Assembly (NCBI RefSeq): GCF_900168195.1
Contig: NZ_FUYX01000002.1
Span: 441,501 to 505,500, forward strand
Direction of reading: 5' to 3'
Source: Allobosea thiooxidans
Lineage (GTDB): Bacteria; Pseudomonadota; Alphaproteobacteria; Rhizobiales; Beijerinckiaceae
Length of the DNA: 64,000 bases
Shown here: positions 6,842 to 51,840 of the stretch, piece after piece
How positions within the stretch are numbered: position 1 is the first letter of the stretch
Layout of the letters: every line of letters begins with the position of its first letter
Position numbers and translations under genes: made by a program
The notes under the pieces: model-generated
What the model was told of the DNA's origin: nothing
Databases searched by the model: none
Seen by the model: only the letters and a program-made list of their open reading frames with translations

Positions 6842-8142
<1,301 letters not shown>

Positions 8143-9018
8143 ATGTCCGGAAGCTCCGTCCCAGCCTATTGGCTCTATGGCGAGCGTCTGGCCGAGCGCT
8201 TCCCCGATGCGCTGCATATCGAGCCGATCGTGGCGCGCAGTTCCCTGCATGGCTGGACGATCCAGCCACATCTGCATCATGACCTGTTCCAGTTCTTCCT
8301 GGTCACCCGGGGGGGAGGGCGGACACGGGTCGACGGCCGCGACCATCGCCTCGAACCGGGATCGGTGCTGCTGCTGCCGCCTTCGACCATCCACGAATTC
8401 GCCTTTCTGGAAGGAACCGACGGCTTCGTGGCCAGCGCCGCGGCGACCTCGCTGAAGCGGCTGTTCGGTGCCGAGCCGGAGGCGCGGTCGTTCCTCGGGG
8501 TGCCGGCGGTGCTGCAGATGACGGCGACGGGCGCGGAAGCGGCAGCGCTGGAGGCGACGATGCGGCTGGCGATGCGCGAGTTCGGGGCGAACCTGCCGGG
8601 CCGCGAATTCTCGCTGGGCGCCTTCGCCGACCTGATCGCGTCCTGGTTCGTGCGGGCGGTGCGCGGCGTGCGGACCGGCGTGGAGCCGGCGCGGGATCCG
8701 CGCGCCGGCCTCGTCCGCCGCTTCGTCGAGCGGGTCGAGGCGCGCTTCCAGCATCATGACCCGCTCGCGGTCTATGCCGGAGCGCTGGGCGTTTCGGTGC
8801 CGCATCTGTCGCGCAGCTGCCGGGAACTGCTCGGCCATTCGGCGGCGCGGGTGATCCAGGACAGGCTGATGATCGAAGCCAGGCGGGACCTGGTCTACAC
8901 GGCGATGTCGATCGCGCAGATCTCGTTCCGGCTGGGCTTCACCGATCCGGCCTATTTCTCGCGCTTCTTCGCCAAGCGCGCAGGGGTGTCGCCGTCGGAC
9001 TATCGGGCGAAGGCCTGA
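8143..9018 (+). CDS. pobR: AraC family transcriptional regulator (PobR-like)
   Basis: Predicted activator of the divergent pobA. The N-terminal half is a cupin-like sensor with the HLHHDLFQFFLVTRGGGR pattern typical of AraC proteins that bind aromatic acids. The C-terminal ~100 residues carry two helix-turn-helix motifs (about VYAGALGVSVPHLSRSCREL and the end region SIAQISFRLGFTDPAYFSRF, split: SIAQISFRLGF, TDPAYFSRFFAKRAG). The start at 8143 is chosen because of the strong GAGGAGG site 3 bp before it; a longer frame from 8077 lacks this. AraC-type PobR is known from rhizobia and Azotobacter; assignment here is by context and similarity. Confidence 0.87.
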   Translation: MSGSSVPAYWLYGERLAERFPDALHIEPIVARSSLHGWTIQPHLHHDLFQFFLVTRGGGRTRVDGRDHRLEPGSVLLLPPSTIHEFAFLEGTDGFVASAAATSLKRLFGAEPEARSFLGVPAVLQMTATGAEAAALEATMRLAMREFGANLPGREFSLGAFADLIASWFVRAVRGVRTGVEPARDPRAGLVRRFVERVEARFQHHDPLAVYAGALGVSVPHLSRSCRELLGHSAARVIQDRLMIEARRDLVYTAMSIAQISFRLGFTDPAYFSRFFAKRAGVSPSDYRAKA

Positions 9019-9022
9019 CGGC

Positions 9023-10204
9023 TCAGCCGGCGGCGTCGATCTCCTTCATCACCGCGGCGGCCTCGGCAAAGCCGGTGTTGCCGGCCGGCACGCCGGCATA
9101 GATCGCCGTCTGCATCAGCAGTTCCTTGAGCTCGTCGCGGGTGAAGCCGCCGCTCGTCAGCCCGGCGCGGACATGCAGGCGGAATTCCTCCCAGCGGCCG
9201 AGGCTCGCGGTGATGGCGAGCACGATCAGGCGCCGCGTGCGGTCGTCCAGCCCGGGGCGGCTCCAGATCTCCTGCCAGGCGACGCGGGTGATCATCGCCT
9301 GGAACTCGGCGTTGAATGGCGTGCGGTTGGCGAGCGAGCGATCCACCCAGGCGTCGCCGAGGACGCGGCGGCGGTTGCCCAGACCGGCCTCGAACAGGGT
9401 CTCGGCTGCGGCGGCGACGTCCGGGCCGGGCTGCAGGAAGGCGCGCAGGGCGCCGGCCAGGGCGGCGGGCGCCTCGAGCGGGGCGAGATGGCCGCAGTCG
9501 AGCCGGTCCAGCTTCGCCGCAGGGATGGCGGCGAGGAGGTTCTCGCCATGGCCGGCGAAGGGAGTGGAGGCGTCGCGCTCGCCGACGACGACCAGCACCG
9601 GGCAGGCGAGGGCGGGTAGCTGGCCGATCAGGTCCATGTCGCGGATCGCGGCTCCGGCCCCGGCATAGCCTTCGCTGTTCATGGCGACGAGACTGCGCCG
9701 CACGCTTTCGGCCACAGCCGGCTGGCCCGCGGCGAAGGCCGGCGAAAGGAAGCGCTGCATGGCGAGGTCGGCGATTGCCGCCGTCCCGCCGGTGCGGACC
9801 TTGGCGATGCGCTCCTGCCAGGCGGCCTTGTCCATGGTCGCTGAGGTGCAGATCAATGCGAGGGCCGAGACGCGCTCCGGCCGGGACAAGGCCAATTCCA
9901 TCGCGATCATGCCGCCGAGCGAGACGCCGGCCACGGCCGCGCGGTCGATGCCGGCGGCATCCATGGCGGCGGAGACGTCGTCCGCCAGCATGGCGAGGCT
10001 GTAGTCGCCAGCCGGCGCGTCGGAGGCGCCGTGGCCGCGGGTGTCGAGCCTGAGCACGCGGAAGGAGGCGAGCAGGGCGGGCAGGACTGCGTCCCAGAGC
10101 GAGAGGTCCGTGCCGATCGAATTCAGCAGCACGAGCGCCGGCTTGCCGTCGGCGCCTTCGAGCTTCCAATAGATCCGGGCGCCGCTGCTCGCTGCGAAAG
10201 GCAT
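9023..10204 (-). CDS. pcaL: Fused 3-oxoadipate enol-lactonase / 4-carboxymuconolactone decarboxylase (PcaL type)
   Basis: A 393-residue two-domain protein for consecutive steps of the protocatechuate branch. Residues 1-255 are an alpha/beta hydrolase (PcaD) with Ser95 in GVSLGGM, Asp211 in GERDAS and His239 in DCGHLAP. Residues about 265-393 are the CMD/PcaC domain (GLGNRRRVLGDAWVDRS ... LHVRAGLTSGGFTRDEL). Expected action: decarboxylate gamma-carboxymuconolactone, then open the enol-lactone to 3-oxoadipate. The ATG at 10204 follows GAGGAAC; the open frame continues much further upstream without homology. It is the last gene of the leftward pca operon, 10 bp after pcaB. Confidence 0.93.
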   Translation of the reverse strand: MPFAASSGARIYWKLEGADGKPALVLLNSIGTDLSLWDAVLPALLASFRVLRLDTRGHGASDAPAGDYSLAMLADDVSAAMDAAGIDRAAVAGVSLGGMIAMELALSRPERVSALALICTSATMDKAAWQERIAKVRTGGTAAIADLAMQRFLSPAFAAGQPAVAESVRRSLVAMNSEGYAGAGAAIRDMDLIGQLPALACPVLVVVGERDASTPFAGHGENLLAAIPAAKLDRLDCGHLAPLEAPAALAGALRAFLQPGPDVAAAAETLFEAGLGNRRRVLGDAWVDRSLANRTPFNAEFQAMITRVAWQEIWSRPGLDDRTRRLIVLAITASLGRWEEFRLHVRAGLTSGGFTRDELKELLMQTAIYAGVPAGNTGFAEAAAVMKEIDAAG

Positions 10205-10214
10205 TGTCCGTTCC

Positions 10215-11354
10215 TCAATCTTGCCGCGCGAGCAGTGCGGCGACCAGCGCCGGGCTCTCGCCGATGTCGCTTCCGAGGCCCGCCGCCGCCAGGTTGCGGG
10301 CGATGGCGGCTTCGTCGATCTCCAGCCCTTCCGCCACCGTCGCCATGGCCTCGGCCGCGCCGCCTGCGAGCAAGAAGAGCTCGGCGAGCGCCGGGCCCTC
10401 TGCCTGCCAGCCACCGAGGCCGCGCTCCTGCTCGGCGGGCAGGCCGGCGAGGATGCCGGCGACGAGGCCGGGCGCCCGCAGGGCGGCGGACAGCGCGATC
10501 TGGCAGCCGGTGGGGTTGCGCTTATGTGCCATGGCCGAGGAGCCGCCGCGGCCGGGGATCGCTGGCTCGCGCGCTTCGCCGATGCCGTTCTGTGCCAGGA
10601 GCGAGACGTCGCGCGCCATTTTGCCGAGCGCGCCGATCGCGATGGCGAGAGCCGCCGCGATGCCGGCGATGCCGCCGCGGCGGGCGTGCCAGGGCGGTGC
10701 GTCCGGCAGGTCGAGCGCGGCGGCGAGGCGGGCCGAGACGGCGGCGCCCTTGCCATCGAGGCCGGCGCGGCTGCCGGCTGCTCCGCCGAATTGCAGGGTG
10801 GCGCCGGTCTCGACCTCGTGCCGCAGGCGTTCGGCGGCTTCGACGATGCCGGCCTGCCATTGCGCGAGGCGCAGGCCGAGGCCGATCGGCAGCGCATCCT
10901 GCAGCAAGGTGCGGCCGATAGCGGGTGTCGCGGCATGGCGCTGCGCCAAGGCGGCCAGCGCCGTCGCCGTACGGGCAAGATCGCTGTCGAGCAGGGCGCT
11001 CGCGGCGCGAATCTGGCAGGCCAGCACCGAATCCGCGACATCCTGGCTGGTCGCCCCCTTGTGCAGGACGGCGGCGGCAGCTTTCGGCAAGGCGGCGCGC
11101 AGCCGCGCCACCAGAGGGATGGCGAGGGTGCCCGCCAGCGTCGTCTCCTCCGCCAGCGCGGCGGGGTCGATCACGATCCTGGCGCAGAGCGCCGCGATCG
11201 CCTCGGCCGACTCGGGCCCGATCAGTCCTTCGGCCGCTTCGGCGCGGGCGAGCTCCGCCTCGAAGGCGAGCGCATGGCGCAGCGTGGCCGCGTCGGAGAA
11301 CGCGGCCAGCATCGCCTGGGTTGTCGCCGGCCGCGAGCGGAGGAGCCCGCTCAC
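10215..11354 (-). CDS. pcaB: 3-carboxy-cis,cis-muconate cycloisomerase
   Basis: A 379-residue member of the fumarase/aspartase superfamily that cyclises 3-carboxymuconate to gamma-carboxymuconolactone, the substrate of the PcaC domain encoded next. HKGATSQDV (98-106) and [13 protein letters not shown] (268-280) are the conserved catalytic-loop signatures of the family, and [15 protein letters not shown] fits PcaB. The first codons overlap the end of pcaJ by 4 bp, so translation is coupled. It is at the short end of PcaB lengths. Confidence 0.93.
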
Positions 11355-41753: not shown

Positions 41754-44700
41754 ATGGTCGGATTGTTCAGTTATATTTGGAAAAATAGCTGGCTTGAGCA
41801 GATAAAGATCATCTGCATTGCGCTATTGTCTTTGCCTTTCTACTATTTCTCGCTCGATCTGCCGCGATACATCATCGCCGACGCGCTGCAGGGGCGGGCA
41901 TTCGCGGGCGGGCAGGAGACGGCGAAGCTCTTTCACCTCACGCTGAACCTGCCGCAATCGCTGGGTGGTCCCCGGACGCTGTTCGACGGAATCTGGCTCG
42001 ACAGGCTGTCCTATCTCTTCGCGCTGTCGGGGCTCTTCCTGCTGTTCGTCCTGATCAACGGCGGGTTCAAATACCTCATCAACATGCGCAAGGGGGCCTT
42101 GGGCGAGCGCCTGCTGCAGCGCCTGCGCCTCGATCTGTTCTCGGCGGTGCTGCATTTCAAGCCGGAGGCGCTCCAGCGGATCAAGCCTTCCGAGGCGGCG
42201 ACGATCATCAAGGACGAGGTCGAGCCGGTCGGCGGTTTCGTCGGGGACGCCTTCGTTCAGCCGATCTTCCTAACCGGCCAGGCGCTGACCGCGCTCGTCT
42301 TCATCTTCGCCCAGAATCTCGCGCTTGGCCTGATCGCAGGGGGGATGATCCTGATCCAGGGGATCCTCATCCCCCGCCTGCGGCGGGAGCAGATCCGCCT
42401 GGCGCGGCAGCGCCAGATCGCTTCGCGGGCCTTCGCCGGAAAGATCGGCGAGGTGGTCGAAACCCTGGCGGAGGTCGCCAATCACGGCACGGCCGCGGTG
42501 GAGAAGGGCCTGATCGCGCAGCGGCTGGAGCTGCTCTTCGGCATTCGCTATCGGCTCTATGCGCGGAAATTCGCGGTCAAGGCGCTGAACAATCTGCTGG
42601 CGCAGATGACCCCGTTCCTGTTCTACGCCGTCGGTGGCTATTTCGCCCTCGCCGGCCGTCTCGACCTTGGCCAGCTGGTCGCTGTCATCGCGGCCTATCG
42701 CGATCTGCCGACGCCGGTGAAGGAATTGATCGACTGGGACCAGCAGCGGCTGGACGTCGAGGCCAAGTTCCAGCAGGTCGCCGAGCATTTTGGCCTGGAC
42801 GGCAATCCCGGAGCAGGCACGCCTGGCGGAGACGGCGATGCGGCCAGCCTGCCTGCCGCGGGCATGATCGTGGCGCAGGACCTGACCGTCACGAACCCGG
42901 CCGGGGAGCATGTTCTGGACCGGGTTTCGGCCTCGCTGCCGCTGCAACGGCATATCGCATTGTCGGGCGGAGCAAGCGAAGGCGCGGGCATTCTGGCGCA
43001 GGTCCTGGGCGGGGGCCTTCATGCCAGCAGCGGCCTCGTGACGATTGCCGGCCGGCCTCTCTCGGCGTTGTCGACGGGCATTCGCGGCAAGGAGATCGCC
43101 TATCTCGGCCCGGAGCCCGTCATTCTCGACGGGAGCCTGCGGGACAACATCCTCTACAGCCTGCGCAGGGCACCTGCGGACGCATCAGCTCCGGCCGGCT
43201 GGGCGATCGATTATCGCCGGGCGCAGGCAGACGGCGAGGCAGCACTCGACGTCAAGCTGATCGAGGCGCTGAGGATCGTCGGCCTCGCCGAAGCGGTCTT
43301 CCGCTTCGGACTTGCCGCCAGGCCGGGCTCCGAGATCCCGGGCGAGCTGGTGGCCCGCATTTCGGACATCCGTACCCTCATTCGCCGCAGGCTCGCCGAA
43401 CGCGGGGCCGAGGCCGCGATCGAGCCCTACGACCCCGCGCGCTACACGCGCAATGCGACGATCGGCGAGAACATCCTGTTCGGAGTCCCGACCGAGCCTG
43501 GATTGATCGGTGCGAAGCTCGCCGAAAATGCCCTGACCCGCGAGATTCTGGACGAGCTGGCCCTGACGGATGTGCTGTGCGGGATCGGGCGCCGCATCGC
43601 CGCGACGATGCTGGACATCTTCCGTGATCTCGCCCCCGGCCATGTTCTCTTCGAGCAGTATTCCTTCATCGCGGCCGAGGATTTCCAGCACTATCGCGAG
43701 GCGCTGGGGCGGATGGAGGCCGGAACGGGCAGCGAAGCCGATCGCATGCGACTGATCGGGCTGGCGTTTCTCTACAGCGAACCGCGGCATCGTCTCGGCT
43801 TGCTGGACGCGGCGGTCGAGGCCCGCCTTCTCGCGGCCCGTACCGCCTTTCGCGACCGCGCCTCCGCCGGGCTGGCGCACGCCATCGCCTTCTACGACCC
43901 GCAGCGCTACTGCGCCGCGGCCCCGCTGCGGGACAATCTCCTGTTCGGACTGGCGGCGCAGGGCACGGCCGACGAGGTTCTCCACGATACGCTGGCGGAG
44001 CTCGAGCTGGACGGTAACGTCTACCGGCTGGGCCTCGAGCGGCCTGCCGGTTATAGCGGGCGGCTGCTCTTCCCGGCCATGAAGGCGCAGATCGCGCTGG
44101 CGCGCTGCCTCATCAAGCAACCGCAACTGCTCATCCTCAATAATGCCTTCGGCGCGTTCAGCCAGAGCGAGGCGCGACAGATATTGACCCGCGTCCGGGC
44201 GGCGATGGCCGGGCGAAGCCTGATCGTCGCGGAGCGCGATCTCGCCGACGGCTTCGATCTTCACGTCAGGTTCGACGGGGCGAGGCTGGCGGCCCTGCGA
44301 TCCGTCGCGGAGGTCGCATCCGGCCAGGCCGAGCGGCCGGTCATCGAGGCCGGGGCTGAGGGGCCGGCGGCGACCGGCAGCGGCGAAATCCAGGCCTTGC
44401 GGCGCGTGCCGATCTTCAACGGGCTCGATGCCGCACGGCTGAGGCTCCTCGCCTTCACCGGCGAGCGCACGACCTTCGCCGAGGGCGAGGTATTGTTCCG
44501 GCGCGGGGACGAGGCGGACGCAGCCTATGTCCTGCTCTCGGGCACGGCCGATGTGGTGATCGCGATCGGCGAGGATGGCTCCGTCCGCGGATGGAGCGTC
44601 GCCGAGAATGCCATCATCGGCGAGATGGGCCTCGTTATGGACGATCCCCGCTCGGCCACTGTCGTCGCGACCTCCGATATCGTCGCCCTCAAGCTGCGCA

Positions 44701-44837
44701 AGGAGGTCTTCCTGGCCTTGCTCGCCGAGTTCCCGCAAATGGCGCTCTCGGTCACGCGGCTGATGATCAAGCGCCTGCGCGACAATGCGGCGGCGACGAG
44801 CCTGCCCAGCTCGGCCGGCGCTGCCCGAGACTTGTGA
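41754..44837 (+). CDS. ABC-exporter-like protein with degenerate ATPase and C-terminal cyclic-nucleotide-binding domain
   Basis: A 1027-residue protein. Residues 15-330 resemble an ABC exporter membrane domain with several hydrophobic segments. The ATPase part is damaged at every motif: the Walker A position reads SGGASEGAG (404-412) with no Lys-Ser/Thr, the Q-loop region reads YLGPEPVILDG (no Gln), and the Walker B position reads LLILNNAFG (792-800) in place of LLILDEPT. Between Q-loop and Walker B there are about 260 extra residues holding two copies of a YDPxRY...(E/D)N(I/L)LFG module (559-577 and 714-732). Residues about 880-1010 are a cNMP-binding domain with cassette GEMGLVMDDPRSATV. 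Probably a cAMP-sensing, non-hydrolysing membrane protein. Start at ATG 41754 by homology. Confidence 0.82.
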   Translation: MVGLFSYIWKNSWLEQIKIICIALLSLPFYYFSLDLPRYIIADALQGRAFAGGQETAKLFHLTLNLPQSLGGPRTLFDGIWLDRLSYLFALSGLFLLFVLINGGFKYLINMRKGALGERLLQRLRLDLFSAVLHFKPEALQRIKPSEAATIIKDEVEPVGGFVGDAFVQPIFLTGQALTALVFIFAQNLALGLIAGGMILIQGILIPRLRREQIRLARQRQIASRAFAGKIGEVVETLAEVANHGTAAVEKGLIAQRLELLFGIRYRLYARKFAVKALNNLLAQMTPFLFYAVGGYFALAGRLDLGQLVAVIAAYRDLPTPVKELIDWDQQRLDVEAKFQQVAEHFGLDGNPGAGTPGGDGDAASLPAAGMIVAQDLTVTNPAGEHVLDRVSASLPLQRHIALSGGASEGAGILAQVLGGGLHASSGLVTIAGRPLSALSTGIRGKEIAYLGPEPVILDGSLRDNILYSLRRAPADASAPAGWAIDYRRAQADGEAALDVKLIEALRIVGLAEAVFRFGLAARPGSEIPGELVARISDIRTLIRRRLAERGAEAAIEPYDPARYTRNATIGENILFGVPTEPGLIGAKLAENALTREILDELALTDVLCGIGRRIAATMLDIFRDLAPGHVLFEQYSFIAAEDFQHYREALGRMEAGTGSEADRMRLIGLAFLYSEPRHRLGLLDAAVEARLLAARTAFRDRASAGLAHAIAFYDPQRYCAAAPLRDNLLFGLAAQGTADEVLHDTLAELELDGNVYRLGLERPAGYSGRLLFPAMKAQIALARCLIKQPQLLILNNAFGAFSQSEARQILTRVRAAMAGRSLIVAERDLADGFDLHVRFDGARLAALRSVAEVASGQAERPVIEAGAEGPAATGSGEIQALRRVPIFNGLDAARLRLLAFTGERTTFAEGEVLFRRGDEADAAYVLLSGTADVVIAIGEDGSVRGWSVAENAIIGEMGLVMDDPRSATVVATSDIVALKLRKEVFLALLAEFPQMALSVTRLMIKRLRDNAAATSLPSSAGAARDL

Positions 44838-44854: not shown

Positions 44855-45880
44855 TCACGGAGCGACGTAGCGCATCTCCAGCCGTTGCGGCGGGCCGAGG
44901 TCGCGGTGAGCGCTTGAGATGGTGCGGAGGCTCGCCGGTTTCCGGTCGATCTCGTACATGCGCAGCAGCCGCACGCTTTCGAGATCATGCTCCCGCCGCG
45001 CAGGGCTCTCCGGCGCGGCGGATTCGGCCAGGCAGGAGCTGAAGGCAAAGTCGGTATAGGCCGGCAGCTCATAGGACTCCCATCCGTCGGTTCCCATCGG
45101 GCTGGGCCGTTCCATGATCCATTCCGCGGTGGCACCACTGACCAGCAGACCGGCAGGCGCGCGCGCATCGAAGGCCTGCAAGACGATGCCCTGGCTGGCG
45201 TTCTTCAGATTGCAGCGCACCGTCCTTTCGTCGAGCACGGTCAGGATGGCACTGATCTGGTCGCCGGCCGCCACGGGCAGCGCCAGATCCAGCACCGGGA
45301 GGTCGAGCCCCCGTGCCCACCATTGAAACCAGGCCGAATATTCGGCCTTCGCGGGCGGTCGCGCGAGCCACCTCTGCCTTGTGCCGATCTGTGGGAGTGA
45401 TGAATCGGGATAGAATTTCTGGCCGTCGAGACCGATCCAGGTCGAGCTTTGAAATTCCGACGCGCTGCCGTCGGCTGGAGCGGACACGCTGGGCACCGTC
45501 CAGCTCGCCATGACCGAGACCAGGCTGCGCCCGTCGCGCGGCATGACGTAGCCGCCCGACCAGTTCAGGCTTTTCTGCGCTGGCCGTGTCTGTGGTGCGG
45601 CGACCGCCAGGACGAGCTCCATCATGGTGGGGGCGGGCGGGACCAGCGCCGGAAGGAAGCGCAGCGCAGGCGCGTCATCGCGCTTCCGAAGGAAGTTCCG
45701 GCGAAACGCCGCCGCCGCCGGGTTCGTCCCGTACTCCATCGGTGTCGGCAGGCCGAACCACTCCAGATCGTCGTCGGAGGCCACAGCGGGATCGAAAGGC
45801 TCCAGCGGCATGGGGAGGAGCTTGATTGCCGAATCCTGCGACAGCGCCCCGGCGGTCTCGCCCATGGGATTCCTGACCAT
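44855..45880 (-). CDS. Peptidase G1 (eqolisin) family-like protein
   Basis: A 341-residue protein. From residue about 105 it carries the G1 beta-sandwich motifs in order: LNWSGGYVM, a VPSVSAP segment, STWIGLDGQKFYP, LPQIGTRQRW (Gln in the place of the catalytic Gln), EYSAWFQWWARG and AEWIMERPSP (Glu in the place of the catalytic Glu). G1 enzymes are usually secreted acid peptidases, but no signal peptide is visible; the first 100 residues are an unrecognised leader. It follows the haloperoxidase-like gene by 10 bp, so the two form an operon. Confidence 0.75.
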   Translation of the reverse strand: MVRNPMGETAGALSQDSAIKLLPMPLEPFDPAVASDDDLEWFGLPTPMEYGTNPAAAAFRRNFLRKRDDAPALRFLPALVPPAPTMMELVLAVAAPQTRPAQKSLNWSGGYVMPRDGRSLVSVMASWTVPSVSAPADGSASEFQSSTWIGLDGQKFYPDSSLPQIGTRQRWLARPPAKAEYSAWFQWWARGLDLPVLDLALPVAAGDQISAILTVLDERTVRCNLKNASQGIVLQAFDARAPAGLLVSGATAEWIMERPSPMGTDGWESYELPAYTDFAFSSCLAESAAPESPARREHDLESVRLLRMYEIDRKPASLRTISSAHRDLGPPQRLEMRYVAP

Positions 45881-45890
45881 CGCCGACCTC

Positions 45891-46892
45891 CTAGACCGGC
45901 TTCCATTCGGCGGCTGCCGCGGTTGCCGCCGCGCCGAAGGCCTTGAGCGTGTAGTCGCTCTCGCTCTGCCCGGTGCCCGTGTGCTCGGACAGCGTCGCGA
46001 AGACCGTCGTCGCCAAGGTTTCGCCGGCCATCGAATCGCTGGGATAGTGCAGCCCGGCGATCTCCCGATTGCGAGCCACCCGTCGCGCGAGCGCCTTGAG
46101 GGTCTCGGCTACCGCGATCTTCTCGGCTTGCGGCAGCGCCGGCGTCACGATGTCCAGCACATGCTCGATGCAGGCCGCCATGAGATGGGCCTGGGTGGCA
46201 TGGCCGCTGGGATAGGCCGCATGCCCAGGAACCGGGATGGGCGGCAGCAGGGCAGGGCATTCCCAGGACGGGCGCGGCCGCTGGAAGACATGCTTGTAGT
46301 AAAGCGCGGTGTAGGAGGCCAGCAGGCTGGCGATATGCAGGACCCGGAAGGTCTGCGGATGCGATCCCGGGGCCATGGCCAAGGCCTCCATGAAGGCCGT
46401 GATGAATTCGGCATCCTGCGTCAGGATCTCGCCCAGCGCCGCAGCGCGCTCGTCGCGGGCGGCCACCAGGAGGTTCTTGATCTCCAGTGCTTGTTTCGTC
46501 TCGCCGCCATAGGCCGTGTTCAGATCGAGCAGGATATCCGCCAGGCTGTCATGCAGCGTCACGGTGTTCCAGTCGGTCGCCGCGAATTCCGCGAGAACGC
46601 GAAAGGCATACCAGCGCGCGGCCCAGTTGCGGTCGGCGAACGCGACCGATTTTCCGCCGGTGCCGGCGTTCAAGAACAGGACCGTCTTTTCGGGACCGCC
46701 GTTGGGGTCCTGGAGGATGTGAACGACCCTGCGCAGATCCCGGATCCGCTCCCCGCTGGTCGCCGCCTCCATCGAGAACGGAAAATCCGCTCTCTCCGCG
46801 AGCAGCCAGCTCGTACCGTCGCTGCCGACGCCGGCGCTTCCAGCGTTGCCGGTATTGCCGGTGTTTCCCGTATTTCCTGTATTGCCGGTCAT
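45891..46892 (-). CDS. Vanadium haloperoxidase/PAP2-superfamily protein
   Basis: A 333-residue protein. The acid phosphatase/haloperoxidase motifs appear in order: KHVFQRPRP (KX6RP), YPSGHAT and NREIAGLHYPSD (RX5HX3D with Asn-Arg for Ser-Arg). The upstream half is helical as in bacterial vanadium chloroperoxidase-like proteins. No transmembrane helices or signal peptide. The N-terminus is a low-complexity run of GNT triplets. An upstream TTG (46925) would add 11 residues; ATG 46892 is preferred. Either halide oxidation or phosphate-ester hydrolysis is possible. Confidence 0.8.
   Translation of the reverse strand: MTGNTGNTGNTGNTGNAGSAGVGSDGTSWLLAERADFPFSMEAATSGERIRDLRRVVHILQDPNGGPEKTVLFLNAGTGGKSVAFADRNWAARWYAFRVLAEFAATDWNTVTLHDSLADILLDLNTAYGGETKQALEIKNLLVAARDERAAALGEILTQDAEFITAFMEALAMAPGSHPQTFRVLHIASLLASYTALYYKHVFQRPRPSWECPALLPPIPVPGHAAYPSGHATQAHLMAACIEHVLDIVTPALPQAEKIAVAETLKALARRVARNREIAGLHYPSDSMAGETLATTVFATLSEHTGTGQSESDYTLKAFGAAATAAAAEWKPV
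46833..46886 (-). repeat. GNT triplet repeat at the N-terminus of the haloperoxidase-like protein
   Basis: Just after the start codon the protein reads four GNT triplets, then GNA-GSA, from imperfect 9-bp DNA units with varied third bases. The synonymous variation suggests an old repeat kept for its protein sequence, not recent slippage. Confidence 0.6.
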
Positions 46893-46943
46893 GGCTCGGA
46901 CCCCGAACGGTTGCTGTTGCGGCAAAGTCGTTAGGCCAAAGGT

Positions 46944-48695
46944 TCAGTCAGGCAGGCCCGCCCTTCGCAGATGCCCGAGCCATTGCCCCAGAATGGGCGG
47001 CAGGAACGGACAGCGTGGCGCATAGATGGCCAGCCGAAAATCCGGCTGGACCAGCAGAAGGCGATCGACCGCGTTTGTAGCTTCCGTCAGCCGGCCCGCA
47101 GCCATCAGGCTGGCGACGAGGATCCGCAGCGTAAATCGGATCGAGGGGTTGTGGGCAACGGCGCTGCGCGCCCAGCCGACGGCCTGGTCGTAGTCACCAT
47201 TGACGTAATGGGCCTGGGCAAGGATGCCCTCGTGAAAGAAGCGATAGGGATCGGCCGGGGCCAGGCGTTGCCCGGCCTCGGCGTGCAGGACCGCAAGCGG
47301 ACCATCGCCGATGAAGCCGCGCGTGGCGCTGCTCATCGTCCAGGCCATTGCCACGCTCGGCCCGGCCTCGATCGCACGATCGAGAAAGCGCTGGGCCGTG
47401 ACCATGTCGCGCAGGAAAAACGCCTGAACGTGGCCATAGATCGCGAGAGCCAGTGCATCGTTGCCGTCGTGTTCGATGGCGGCCCGCGCGCGTTCGGCCG
47501 CGACCTGCGCGTCTCCCTCCGGATCGGGCGATCCGAACTCGCCGACGCGGAAAACATGCCAGAGCGCCGTATAGGTGAAAGGCGGCGCATAGGACGGGTC
47601 CAGCGCCATCGCCTGCTGCAAGAGCCCGCGCGCGCGGGCAAAGCTGTCGCTGTCCATCTTGTAGAGGAGGTCGAGCGCCTGGAGCAGCAGGTCATAGGCG
47701 GTCATGTTCTGCGGATGCTGCCGAAGGGCGCGCTGCAGCTCATGCTCGCGCACATGGGGCGCGATGGTCTTGACGAGCTTCAGCGAGATCCGATCCTGCA
47801 GGTCGAAGAGTTCGCCGACCTTGCCGTCATAGTGATCGGCGCTGAGCACGGCGCCGTTTTCGTTGGCGATGAGCTCGGTGCTGATGCGGACGCGCCTGTC
47901 GGACAGCGCGACGGTGCCGTCCATCACGTAGCGGACGCCGAGCTTGCGCCCGACAGCAACCGGGTCGATACGCCGCCGGCCATATTCCAGGGTGGAGCCG
48001 CGCGAGATGACGAACAGCTCCTTGAGCCCCGACAGCGACTGGATGATCGAGTCGACGACGCCGTCGGCCATGGTGCTCTTATGGAGCCCGGAACCGTTCA
48101 TGCGGAAAGGCAGGACGGCGATCGATGCCCTCGCATCCATGCCGGCGGGGCTTTCGCCGATCTTTCGAGGAGCCGAGCCTGCTTCTGACCGAAGGGCGAA
48201 GGCGCGCACCGGCTGCTTGTGGTTGCGCAGGAAGATCTCGCCCATGTCGGAGGCAAGCGATCGCGTCGCTTCATCGACCCGCGCGAAGACCGCTTCCGAT
48301 ACGATCACTCCCCCTTGCTCGGCATAGGATTGCAGCCGGGCAGCGACATTGACGCCGTCGCCGTAGATGTCGCCGCCGTCGAAGATGACGTCGGCGAGGT
48401 GGATCCCCATGCGGAACGCGATGCGCAGGGCGATGGGCTGATCGGCCGTCGCGGCGGCGAGGGCACGCTGGAGCGACAGCGCACAGCGGGAAGCGGCCGG
48501 GGCGCCGTCGAAGGTCGCCAGGAATCCGTCGCCCGTGTTCTTGACGATACGCCCGCCATGCTCGCCGACGCAGGGCTCGATCAGGTCGGCGCGCAGCCGC
48601 ATCAGGCGATGATGCGTATCCTCCTCGGCCGCCTCGCTCAGACGCATGTAGCCGACCACGTCGGCAGAAAGGATGGCGGCCAGATGGCGTTTCAT
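46944..48695 (-). CDS. Class III adenylate cyclase with TPR-type C-terminal domain
   Basis: A 583-residue cytoplasmic protein. Residues 1-165 are the cyclase catalytic domain: the metal Asp residues are in LSADVVGYMRLSE and KNTGDGFLATF, and GDIYGDGVNVAARLQ carries the transition-state Asn/Arg. The middle (about 190-330) resembles the FlgO/TolB-like segment ASIAVLPFRMNGSG seen in rhizobial cyclases. The C-terminal half is a run of TPR-like helical repeats. The ATG at 48695 matches the conserved MKRHLAAILSADVVGYMRLS start (split: MKRHLAAILSADV, VGYMRLS). It makes cAMP that could act on the two cNMP-domain proteins nearby. Confidence 0.9.
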   Translation of the reverse strand: MKRHLAAILSADVVGYMRLSEAAEEDTHHRLMRLRADLIEPCVGEHGGRIVKNTGDGFLATFDGAPAASRCALSLQRALAAATADQPIALRIAFRMGIHLADVIFDGGDIYGDGVNVAARLQSYAEQGGVIVSEAVFARVDEATRSLASDMGEIFLRNHKQPVRAFALRSEAGSAPRKIGESPAGMDARASIAVLPFRMNGSGLHKSTMADGVVDSIIQSLSGLKELFVISRGSTLEYGRRRIDPVAVGRKLGVRYVMDGTVALSDRRVRISTELIANENGAVLSADHYDGKVGELFDLQDRISLKLVKTIAPHVREHELQRALRQHPQNMTAYDLLLQALDLLYKMDSDSFARARGLLQQAMALDPSYAPPFTYTALWHVFRVGEFGSPDPEGDAQVAAERARAAIEHDGNDALALAIYGHVQAFFLRDMVTAQRFLDRAIEAGPSVAMAWTMSSATRGFIGDGPLAVLHAEAGQRLAPADPYRFFHEGILAQAHYVNGDYDQAVGWARSAVAHNPSIRFTLRILVASLMAAGRLTEATNAVDRLLLVQPDFRLAIYAPRCPFLPPILGQWLGHLRRAGLPD

Positions 48696-48931
48696 CGTCG
48701 CGACGAAGCTCTCGGATCCGGAACCGGTCCGCACCGATCCGGATAGCCAGCAATGCGTCAGCCTCGACGGAATGCTGGCATGGCAGCCTTGTCCGGTCCA
48801 CCTCAAAGCGCCCGGTTTCGGCATCTGGGTTCCGTTAGGGAAATGCCGGGAACGGCATGCGCGCGAATTTCCGGCTCGCGGGGGACCGTGCCCCCGCCTC
48901 GTCGGCCGGCGGCCAGCGCCGTGGCGCTACG

Positions 48932-49340: not shown

Positions 49341-50039
49341 ATGAGCGATGACCCTCGCCGGATCGCGAGCCTTCTCTCGGCAAACCCGTTCTTCGCCGGG
49401 TTCGCGCAAGGCACCCTCGACAGGATCGCTGCGATCTGCCGGCAGCAGCATCTGGCGGCGCGGGAGGTGCTGTTCCTGAAAGGGGACCCGAGCAACGGGC
49501 TCTACGCCATCCGGCGCGGGCTGATCCGCATCGGCACGACCGACGATCTCGGCCAGCAGTTGACGATGAACGTGCTCGGAGGCGGCGACGTCTTCGGCGA
49601 GATCGCGCTCCTCGACGGCCGTTTCCGGACGGCGGATGCGGTGGCGCTGGAGGACACGGACATGTTCTTCCTGCCGCGCCGGGACTTCCTGCACCTGCTT
49701 TCGAGCGAGCCTGCGATCGCATTGCATGTGATCGAGCTTCTGTGCGGCCGGCTGCGCGATGCGATCGACCGCATGGAGGAGAGTGCGTTCCTGCCGGCCG
49801 AGACAAGGCTGGCGCGGCGCATCCTCATGCTTGCCGTCGATTACGGGATGGTGGTGCGCGCTTCGCAGGAGGAGCTCGCATCACTCGCCGGCGTCACGCG
49901 CGAGACGGTGAACCGCCAGCTCCAGAGGTGGAAGCGTGCCGGCGTTCTCGTACTCGGGCGCAAGCGACTGGAGATCCACGATATCGACGACTTTCGTCGC
50001 CTGACGGGGATCGCGACGCTGGGACCGCGTACGCGGTAG
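49341..50039 (+). CDS. CRP/FNR family transcriptional regulator, CRP-like
   Basis: A 232-residue regulator. The N-terminal cNMP-binding beta-roll ends in FGEIALLDGRFRTADAVAL, with Gly-Glu and Arg-Thr-Ala in place of the cAMP-contacting GE...RSA of E. coli CRP. The C-terminal HTH has recognition helix VTRETVNRQLQRW; RETVxR is the CRP pattern that reads TGTGA. The FNR iron-sulfur cysteine cluster is absent. So a cAMP-responding CRP-type protein is likely; it may control itself and neighbours through the two CRP-like sites. Confidence 0.9.
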   Translation: MSDDPRRIASLLSANPFFAGFAQGTLDRIAAICRQQHLAAREVLFLKGDPSNGLYAIRRGLIRIGTTDDLGQQLTMNVLGGGDVFGEIALLDGRFRTADAVALEDTDMFFLPRRDFLHLLSSEPAIALHVIELLCGRLRDAIDRMEESAFLPAETRLARRILMLAVDYGMVVRASQEELASLAGVTRETVNRQLQRWKRAGVLVLGRKRLEIHDIDDFRRLTGIATLGPRTR

Positions 50040-50070: not shown

Positions 50071-51780
50071 CTATTTCCTGTCGCCGATCACCGCGGCGAA
50101 GATTGCGATCGGCTTGTCGAAGCCCTTCAGGATCCGCGCATCCAGCTCGATGAGCGGAAGGCGCGAACCGACGGCGCGAGCAGCGACACGGTCCATGAGA
50201 ATCTCGAAATCGCCCGCGATCGAACACAGGCGCGCTGCGAGATTCACGACGTTGCCGACCGCGGTATAGTCGAGGCGCCCCCCGGAGCCGATCCGCCCGA
50301 CGGTGGCGAGCCCCATGGCGAGGCCCACGCCAAAGCCGAGGCGATGGTCGAACGCGCGCCGGGCGGCCAGCAGCTTCTGCACATCGATCTGCATGTCGTG
50401 CGCCATCTCCAGCGCTTGCAATGCCGGATCCGCGCAGGGAACAGGGGCATTGAACAGCACCATCGCCCCATCGCCGGAGAAATTCGTCAGCGTTCCCTCA
50501 TGGGCTGTGACCACCCTTTCGAGGACGTCATAGTATTCGCCCAGGACGCCCATGACGGCCTCGGGCTCGGCCCGCGCCGAGAAGGCGGTGAAGCCACGCA
50601 GATCACAGAACAGGACGGCGACTTCGACGCGTCGTCCGTCGAGCATGTGATCACCCCCCGTGCGATCGATGAGCTCGGCGACCTGCGGGGCCAGGAAACG
50701 CCTGAGCCGGCTGATGCGTTCCGAGCGCTCCTGCGAGAGCGCGAGCTCGCCCGCCATCTCGTTGAACCGGGTCGCGAGCCGCTCGAGTTCGTCCCCGGTG
50801 GCGAGATTGATCCGGTGATCGAATTGCCCGGCGCCGATCCGGGAGGCTCCGTCCTCCAGAAGGTGGATCGGCCCCGTCATCCGATGCGTCAGCCAGTAGG
50901 CGAGCGCCGCGGCAAGGATCGCGCCGGCAACGAGCAAGGCCGCCGTGCGCCAGAGAGCCGCGTAGATCGGGCCGAAAGCCTCGACCAGGGGCTGCTTGAC
51001 GATGACGCTCCAGCCGACATTGCCGATCGGCGCCATCGCGGCGAGGACCGTGTTCCCGGTGACGTCCTGCCCGGCGATCGCCTGGCCCGGGCGGGCGAGG
51101 ATCGCGGCACGCAGTTCCCGGAGCGGCCGCGTCGCGGTTTCGTCGGCACGCAACACCAGGCTGATGTCCGGATGAGCGATCAGGCGGCCTGGCCGATCGA
51201 GTACGAAGGCCTCCCCGGTGCGTCCGACGCGGATCGCCAGGATCACGTCCCAGATGAATTTGAGGTTGACCTCGGCGATGGCCACGCCGGCAGCCGCGCG
51301 GTTGCCCGCGACCGCCATGGTCATGAAGGGCTCCGAGCCGCCTTGAAACGCCACGGGGCCGTACCAGACGCGATGGGAGCGAGCTTCCGTCACGGCGGGA
51401 TTCCCGGAGCGGTCGGCGCCGCTCTCGAACCTGTTCAGGCCGATACGGGACACGAACAGCCGTTCCCGCCCCGAGGCATCGACGAGGCTCAGGCTCTGGA
51501 TGGGAGGGACTTGCCGCAGCACGAGCAAGGCATCGAGCCTGCGCTTGTCATCGGCATTCTCCGACCATGGCAAAAGGACCGCCCATCCAAGCTGATCACG
51601 GATTCCTTCCATGAAATCCTGGATCTTGGCCGCAGCTGCCCGTGCCTCGGCGTCGAGCAGGTCATTGAGGCTGGCCCGTTGATCGCGATAGCCGAACCAG
51701 GCCTCGCCAACACCGGCGACCAGGAGCGGAATGACGACCGCCGCGAACAGTGCGAGGAAGTACTTCCTGAACAGCGACAT
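50071..51780 (-). CDS. Membrane-bound class III adenylate cyclase with Cache-type sensor and HAMP domain
   Basis: A 569-residue protein. One helix near the N-terminus (FLALFAAVVIPLLVAGVGEA) and a second around residues 275-300 flank an extracytoplasmic Cache-like sensor of about 240 residues. HAMP follows (LTHRMTGPIHLLEDGASRIG). The catalytic domain has LFCDLRGFTAFSARA and NFSGDGAMVLFNAP with metal Asp residues and DYTAVGNVVNLAARLCS. Predicted to turn an external signal into cAMP. Starts: ATG 51780 (chosen) or GTG 51807. The next gene upstream on this strand is a lone binding protein 60 bp away. Confidence 0.9.
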   Translation of the reverse strand: MSLFRKYFLALFAAVVIPLLVAGVGEAWFGYRDQRASLNDLLDAEARAAAAKIQDFMEGIRDQLGWAVLLPWSENADDKRRLDALLVLRQVPPIQSLSLVDASGRERLFVSRIGLNRFESGADRSGNPAVTEARSHRVWYGPVAFQGGSEPFMTMAVAGNRAAAGVAIAEVNLKFIWDVILAIRVGRTGEAFVLDRPGRLIAHPDISLVLRADETATRPLRELRAAILARPGQAIAGQDVTGNTVLAAMAPIGNVGWSVIVKQPLVEAFGPIYAALWRTAALLVAGAILAAALAYWLTHRMTGPIHLLEDGASRIGAGQFDHRINLATGDELERLATRFNEMAGELALSQERSERISRLRRFLAPQVAELIDRTGGDHMLDGRRVEVAVLFCDLRGFTAFSARAEPEAVMGVLGEYYDVLERVVTAHEGTLTNFSGDGAMVLFNAPVPCADPALQALEMAHDMQIDVQKLLAARRAFDHRLGFGVGLAMGLATVGRIGSGGRLDYTAVGNVVNLAARLCSIAGDFEILMDRVAARAVGSRLPLIELDARILKGFDKPIAIFAAVIGDRK

Positions 51781-51840
51781 GCGCGAGGCGGCGGGGGGAT
51801 TGGGCACGGGGTTGGCTCACGCGACAGATGACCGGCCGGG

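Follow-up and report, generated by a model that had tools for sequence, protein, structure and literature searches.

A family of alphaproteobacterial exporter-like proteins with degenerate ATPase motifs and adjoining cyclase genes: candidates for cyclic-AMP-switched membrane gates

Domain architecture of the window protein

We analysed a stretch of 64,000 nucleotides from Allobosea thiooxidans (contig NZ_FUYX01000002.1, positions 441,501 to 505,500), referred to as the window; coordinates below are positions in it. The subject of this study is one gene of the window, which encodes a protein of the ATP-binding cassette (ABC) exporter type. In this protein, the ATPase motifs of the nucleotide-binding domain (NBD) are degenerate, and a cyclic-nucleotide-binding domain (CNBD) follows at the C-terminus. 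The reading frame (41754-44837, +) is uninterrupted across 1027 amino acids (aa). Its features are as follows (dN/dS, ratio of nonsynonymous to synonymous substitution rates):

41754..44837, +, fused ABC-exporter-like protein with C-terminal CNBD, ATPase-dead as judged by its motifs, 1027 aa
41754..42788, +, exporter-type transmembrane domain, residues 1-345, with the lowest dN/dS among the domains in comparisons with three congeners
42843..43178, +, NBD core, first part, residues 364-475
42963..42989, +, degenerate Walker A (SGGASEGAG)
43095..43163, +, Q-loop segment, copy 1, YLGPEPVILDGSLRDNILY, Gln lost
43179..43958, +, 260-aa NBD insert, residues 476-735
43428..43484, +, repeat copy 2, YDPARYTRNATIGENILFG
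43893..43949, +, repeat copy 3, YDPQRYCAAAPLRDNLLFG
43959..44303, +, NBD core, second part, residues 736-850
44127..44153, +, degenerate Walker B (LLILNNAFG)
44385..44795, +, CNBD, residues 878-1014
44619..44663, +, canonical phosphate-binding cassette, GEMGLVMDDPRSATV

Both parts of an exporter chain, an exporter-type transmembrane domain and one NBD fold, are present in the window protein. When it was compared with Pfam, ABC_membrane matched residues 91-313 (E 4.3e-9) and cNMP_binding (PF00027) residues 907-992 (E 1.4e-17, 63.9 bits at a cut-off of 27.5); ABC_tran was seen as a marginal fragment only (residues 388-484, 24.8 bits, cut-off 25). None of the 25 NCBIfam matches listed (of 46) came near its cut-off, the best being MsbA with 78 bits against 602. 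An alignment of 87 rows revealed dozens of invariant residues in the membrane domain. In P0001, residues 46-83 form a long loop that joins the first two membrane helices and contains four short predicted strands and conserved Gly, Phe, and Pro. Genes of the family are annotated, for example, as 'ABC transporter ATP-binding protein' or as 'putative ABC transport system ATP-binding protein'.

ATPase motifs

Motifs were read at the canonical positions, which we take from established knowledge of ABC proteins. The preliminary description of this DNA had reported a Walker A without Lys-Ser/Thr, the absence of the Q-loop Gln and a Walker B reading LLILNNAFG, and reading and aligning the motifs confirmed these observations. 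In the alignment with relatives, Walker A is G-G-A-S-E-G-A-G compared to GxxGxGK[ST], with Lys replaced by Ala and Ser by Gly. The Q-loop Gln is replaced by Pro (YLGPEP), the signature is LFPAM without Gly-Gly, both the Asp and the Glu of Walker B (LLILNN) are Asn, and the H-loop region (VAERD) has no His. Measured against the Walker A, Walker B, signature, Q-loop, and H-loop of ABC exporters, the window protein falls short throughout and would not be expected to hydrolyse ATP.

The motifs were then counted in 429 aligned rows (430 minus one truncated; some are redundant). The Walker A Lys was present in 65 rows, Ser/Thr in 77 and both in 3; Walker B had its Asp in 150 rows and Asp-Glu in 8. 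The combination of Lys and Ser/Thr with the Walker B Asp occurred in none of the 429 rows and in one (L256) of 14 further loci. An earlier census of 330 rows contained 41 in which the Walker A Lys was kept, Ser/Thr was changed to Glu/Asp, and the Walker B Asp to Asn. The Walker A Ser/Thr and the Walker B Asp are the two residues that hold Mg. Some members, e.g. L084, retain the H-loop His; the H-loop count of the 429-row census, which was 0, was disregarded, as its column misses the His of L084 and others. An ATP-powered pump with unusual motifs could be argued for from L256, which keeps Walker A and B, and from the 65 rows with the Walker A Lys. However, the window protein lacks this Lys, both Walker B acids, the Q-loop Gln, the signature Gly-Gly, and the H-loop His, and we regard such a pump as highly improbable.

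The repeat insert

About 260 extra residues separate the two parts of the NBD core. They contain, as described before, two YDPxRY...(E/D)N(I/L)LFG modules (residues 559-577 and 714-732) in addition to the ordinary DGSLRDNILY copy. The earlier suggestion that the post-Q-loop segment had been duplicated is supported by profile-profile comparison, which linked all three copies (copy 2 to copy 3, E 9e-15; copy 1 to copy 3, E 7e-11; copy 1 to copy 2, E 5.6e-6). The stretch between the copies was compared in the same way as a control: E was 1.6e-4 with copy 1 and 0.02 with copy 3, and the value for copy 2 does not count, as the two pieces overlap. Judged by these values, the link between copies 1 and 2 is the weakest. 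The extra region, for which a check for a second nucleotide-binding-like fold had been proposed, is made up of repeats of the helical segment and is no second NBD.

The cyclic-nucleotide-binding domain

The cassette GEMGLVMDDPRSATV of the window CNBD (GE...PRSATV) has Gly-Glu and Arg-Ser/Thr-Ala in place, exactly as the claim that it keeps Gly-Glu and Arg-Ser-Ala had stated. In known binding sites for cyclic adenosine monophosphate (cAMP), such as those of CRP and PKA, the cassette Glu and Arg contact ribose and phosphate. Most family members likewise keep both residues. The window CNBD retains the pocket residues for cAMP and is a candidate cAMP receptor.

We found a CNBD at 195 of 201 loci (198 are distinct, three being represented twice). 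It is fused, as in the window, at 26 loci and encoded by a separate small gene at 169; all separate CNBDs are on the same strand, with the domain starting 5-219 bp past the main frame. No CNBD was found at the other six loci, namely L021 (at a contig end), L025, L171, L173, L174, and L176. At L025, the pseudo-ABC gene is directly followed by a 2Fe-2S cyclase gene, with no CNBD found between them. L171, L173, L174, and L176 keep the NBD and the repeat insert, and their N-terminal half is unalignable with the window membrane domain. A divergent fused branch of 1000-1080 aa (L219, L228, L229, L244-L249), with three loci in genome G344, has motifs and CNBD pockets that are altered further.

Sinorhizobium meliloti carries on pSymB a 37%-identical relative and a separate CNBD gene, annotated as 'ABC transporter ATP-binding protein' and 'Crp/Fnr family transcriptional regulator', respectively. 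In the record of strain 1021 (L230, about 7685-10436), the pseudo-ABC gene is split over two frames; strain 2011 and several others give a single uninterrupted match. Glycosyltransferase/methyltransferase genes are found near the pSymB locus. In an excerpt of PMC10945364, SMb20813 is termed the S. meliloti msbA homologue; this tag may or may not denote the pSymB locus.

Extent of the family and selection

A search with the window protein yielded 3363 relatives at E <= 1e-30 (7993 candidates scored), and one with the insert region of the divergent member L084 yielded 2962 at E <= 1e-5 (7997 candidates scored). A sample of the order (249 genomes, 112 genera) contained the insert profile in 84 genomes and 48 genera. 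In a phylum-wide sample of 299 genomes it occurred in 25, every one of them from the same class. When species genomes were scanned, at least 572 loci were detected, the best 80 of which are alphaproteobacterial by title except for two betaproteobacterial metagenome-assembled genomes (L065, L085).

Over 19 pairs (Nei-Gojobori), dN/dS of the whole gene lay between 0.025 and 0.268; the corresponding ranges were 0.019-0.273 in the NBD core and 0.035-0.293 in the insert. A value of 0.666 for a 53-codon 'CNBD' piece (L057/L058) was set aside, as the CNBD is a separate gene there and the piece is the aligned tail. Between the window gene and three congeners, dN/dS was 0.23-0.25 overall and 0.11-0.34 across individual domains, with the lowest values in the membrane domain (0.11-0.16).

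According to the preliminary description, a real family should share the losses and the repeat among many genomes under purifying selection, and homologues with intact Walker motifs and no repeat, or a high dN/dS among close relatives, should speak for local decay. The 429-row census, the insert searches, and the dN/dS values show that losses and repeat are common to a large family under purifying selection. Neither sign of local decay was borne out, except that one relative, L256, keeps Walker A and B, and it too carries the insert. Local decay was rejected because the losses are family-wide and dN/dS is low; the statement that the gene is 'not simple decay' therefore holds. The broken motifs might still suggest a decaying gene, but with an intact frame and low dN/dS in every domain, this explanation retains next to no probability.

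Stand-alone relatives of the membrane domain without an NBD in frame also exist (L232:3974-5362; L233:4853-5902, minus strand; L234:4624-5982; L235:4248-5768; phmmer E 1.9e-41 to 9.5e-39). L233 and L234, the two that were tested, had no Pfam match. The L234 frame has an ABC ATPase frame at a distance of 1.3 kb; in the flanks examined, L232, L233, and L235 showed none. L236-L238 are weaker cases, of which L237 comes directly after an FtsH gene and a gene that ABC_tran matches strongly.

Cyclase genes next to family loci

Three further genes of the window are linked to the exporter-like gene by neighbourhood:

46944..48824, -, class III cyclase with tetratricopeptide repeats (TPR); Asp, Asp, Asn, and Arg kept
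49341..50039, +, CRP-like regulator (CNBD and helix-turn-helix)
50071..51807, -, dCache-HAMP-class III cyclase; Asp, Asp, Asn, and Arg kept

The window genome has four class III cyclases. The two listed here are 3.4 and 5.4 kb away from the window gene with the regulator between them, all within 7 kb, and a third is directly downstream of a split paralogue and its CNBD. The interval from the pseudo-ABC gene to the cyclase-TPR gene (44855-46925, -) is occupied by peptidase A4 and PAP2 genes; they are on the strand of this cyclase and possibly in the same operon.

In a sample of 25 genomes of the genus (G000-G024), the split paralogue was present in 24, and in all 24 a cyclase domain started 1.16-1.20 kb downstream. 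This was the only class III cyclase found in 10 of the 24 genomes. G016, the sole genome without the family, had no class III cyclase that we could find. Wherever the fused form occurred in the genus (six genomes), a cyclase was located within 7 kb. Since congeners share ancestry, the link was tested across other genera of the order. Cyclase genes adjoin family loci far above chance: at 39 of 88 loci, from 16 families, a same-strand cyclase was directly downstream, compared to 0.28 expected from the numbers of cyclases in the genomes concerned, an approximate figure, as locus cyclases were recognized by a home-made profile and genome counts by PF00211. In 200,000 random draws the number never rose above 5. 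L217, which has no downstream cyclase, was excluded from this test as its genome was not counted. In the whole set, a same-strand downstream cyclase was present at 72 of 201 loci. The link to cAMP that had been proposed from the cassette thus receives independent support from the adjoining cyclase genes (24/24 in the genus, 39/88 beyond it).

A 2Fe-2S domain precedes the catalytic domain in all five module cyclases tested (Fer2 and Guanylate_cyc domains); these were chosen for their likeness to the L011 cyclase, and a shorter type of ~475 aa occurs at other loci. Because of this domain, the cyclases of some lineages are probably redox-responsive. Many split loci (among them L037, L059, L076, and L011) have a peptide-importer ATPase gene (YejF/OppDF-like) nearby, encoded on the other strand.

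The neighbourhood bears on two further explanations. In the first, the window protein would be one half of a heterodimeric exporter, inactive itself, and the functional ATPase site would come from its partner, as is the case in TM287/288 or TAP. Heterodimeric exporters with a degenerate site keep one working composite site. The structure model of the window protein matches chains of TM287/288, TmrAB, and BmrCD, and degenerate sites in such exporters are described in an excerpt of PMC7756269. However, the directly downstream gene encodes a CNBD, often with a cyclase, and signature, Walker A, and Walker B are all lost together in the window protein. Moreover, no second exporter half occurred among the nameable neighbour clusters, although no search was aimed at one and a partner could be unlinked. 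Taken together, a heterodimer half seems unlikely.

A Pycsar-like anti-phage pair, in which the cyclic nucleotide of the cyclase opens a CNBD-bearing membrane effector, would in principle be built from the same parts. In PADLOC, the CNBD has matches to Pycsar TIR effectors, and Pycsar models are matched by each of six neighbour proteins tested, namely five cyclases (best E 1.3e-8 to 4.1e-24) and one regulator. The fused form is also patchy in the genus. These PADLOC matches, however, span generic shared domains only, and the split copy is near-universal in the genus (24/25), unlike a patchy defence gene. We therefore consider an anti-phage role very unlikely.

Joint loss of residues in one clade

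In the split operon of the genus, all 24 cyclases keep both Asp that bind metal and have lost the Asn and Arg that act in the transition state (VNxAxR has become VMVASQ or the like), and all 24 CNBDs have lost the phosphate Arg and carry Asp in place of Glu. In ten genomes of the genus, this impaired-looking cyclase is the sole class III cyclase found. Counting Asp-Asp-Asn-Arg/Lys as intact for the cyclase and R[STN][AT] for the CNBD (so that L167, with Glu changed to Ala, scored intact), we compared the states at 70 loci with both genes. Both were intact at 36 loci and lost at 32; the cyclase alone was lost at 2 and the CNBD alone at none, so that the states agree at 68 of 70. Among CNBDs without a downstream cyclase, the motif was lost in 6 of 125. 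On the family tree, the lost/lost loci form a single clade, and the co-loss was therefore counted as one event; an independent replication was not found (two independent pairs, sign test p = 1). In a tree without an outgroup row, the midpoint root fell on L171, a long and misaligned row.

The loss of cyclase and CNBD residues together suggests that the CNBD reads the product of the adjoining cyclase. One clade apparently keeps all three proteins with their nucleotide chemistry switched off. This clade fits protein contact better than a flow of cAMP, as 24 of 25 genomes of the genus have retained the split-operon genes despite the lost residues. The module could be a receptor or scaffold in the membrane that binds cAMP and transports nothing. 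Its exporter fold, pseudo-NBD, and CNBD would then anchor or regulate the adjoining cyclase and other partners, in a signalling complex such as the one reported for CyaC with Clr and CycR. The tight gene link to cyclases and the complex that CyaC forms with regulators (excerpt of PMC10463352) are in line with such a role. The membrane domain, with the lowest dN/dS and its many invariant residues, is less readily accommodated, since such constraint is expected of a path or substrate site, although also of partner contacts. A receptor or scaffold is a serious possibility, which we hold tentatively.

Discussion

With moderate confidence, we propose that the window protein represents, in fused form, a module conserved in alphaproteobacteria, consisting of an exporter fold with a broken ATPase, a CNBD, and often a class III cyclase, and that it is likely a cAMP-switched membrane gate rather than an ATP pump. 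The inference in the preliminary description, a cAMP-gated membrane sensor, channel, or scaffold that does not hydrolyse ATP, is partly supported. The adjoining cyclase would make cAMP, which the CNBD would bind, whether it is part of the chain or a subunit of its own. The enlarged pseudo-NBD might then relay the conformational change of the CNBD to the membrane domain, taking the place of the ATP-driven NBD closure of an active exporter. In the least certain step, the membrane domain would open or close a passive path for a solute or lipid. Our preference for a gated passive path rests on the membrane domain, which is under the strongest constraint of all parts and has relatives whose chain contains no NBD (L232-L235); a receptor or scaffold is only slightly less likely.

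Several points weigh against a cAMP-switched gate. At 129 of 201 loci (126 of 198 distinct), no same-strand cyclase was directly downstream in the flanks examined, and 9 of 26 fused loci had no cyclase on either strand there. The fused form is patchy, occurring in 6 of 25 genomes of the window's genus, and the co-loss of cyclase and CNBD residues is confined to one clade, without repeated events. L256 retains the Walker A Lys-Ser and the Walker B Asp-Glu, together with a VSQTL signature and the insert, and L186, P0127, and P0131 retain the Walker A Lys-Ser/Thr, with the Walker B Asp changed to Asn. Given these loci and the 65 rows with Lys, part of the family may bind ATP. The ligand of the CNBD could differ from cAMP, as the CNBD of HetC binds ppGpp (guanosine tetraphosphate). 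Finally, the parts, the losses, the selection, and the gene link are read from sequence; cAMP binding, gating, and channel activity are predictions.

A more far-reaching scenario, which we regard as speculative and rather doubtful, is that an exporter family traded ATP for cAMP. The NBD would have turned into an inactive, larger relay in which the helical segment is present three times, and the cyclase-CNBD pair would have taken over from ATP binding as the switch. One clade would then have dropped the cAMP step too, with pseudo-ATPase, pseudo-CNBD, and pseudo-cyclase persisting and the redox-type cyclase signalling by direct contact.

In textbooks, ABC exporters are pumps driven by ATP. With a family whose only NBD is dead, is under selection and is tied genetically to cAMP, it becomes directly testable whether an exporter fold can be driven by another ligand. 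Genetics are at hand, because the 37%-identical relative lies on pSymB of the model symbiont S. meliloti. Annotation is affected as well, since pseudo-ABC genes are named as ATP-binding transporters and the lone CNBD gene as a 'Crp/Fnr family transcriptional regulator'.

Comparison with known systems

A literature search by titles and abstract starts found no published description of a family with a dead NBD, a tripled segment, and a link to cyclase and CNBD. MsbA/BmrA/PCAT-like exporters share the membrane-domain fold, the NBD core fold, and the domain order with the window protein, which differs from them in the loss of all ATPase motifs, the 260-aa repeat insert, and the CNBD that the family has in cis or in trans. 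TM287/288, TAP, BmrCD, and MRP1, which as generally known have one degenerate site, likewise lost catalytic residues in an NBD; the damage in the window protein is far wider, and the adjoining gene encodes a CNBD. SUR and CFTR are ABC proteins that gate channels or are channels themselves and still respond to ATP/ADP. They resemble the proposed gate in the use of an ABC fold for gating, whereas the switch here would be the CNBD. Pycsar systems, as represented by PADLOC models, also combine cyclase, CNBD, and a membrane part; they differ in that the matches are to generic domains and the split copy is near-universal in the genus.

HetC of Nostoc is likewise an ABC exporter fused to a CNBD. According to an excerpt of PMC10986499, its CNBD is N-terminal and binds ppGpp, and it has a C39 peptidase and an essential ATPase residue. 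In contrast, the CNBD of our family is C-terminal or separate, the ATPase motifs are dead, and the window protein had no peptidase match in Pfam (E <= 1), so that the C39 peptidase and the working ATPase of the HetC type are both missing. CyaC of S. meliloti is a redox-sensitive class III adenylate cyclase in complex with regulators (Clr, CycR), as stated in an excerpt of PMC10463352. The CyaC neighbours named in that excerpt are regulators and not a pseudo-ABC protein. The five module cyclases tested are of class III too and have a 2Fe-2S domain. This comparison covers the Fer2 and Guanylate_cyc domains; cyclases of the CyaC type are further characterized by a six-helix haem-binding anchor. 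Degenerate-site exporters, ABC channels or channel regulators, and a CNBD exporter with a live ATPase (HetC) are already known; what appears to be new, by the literature search above, is the combination in one family of a sole NBD that is dead, a helical segment in three copies, and a gene neighbourhood of cyclase and CNBD.

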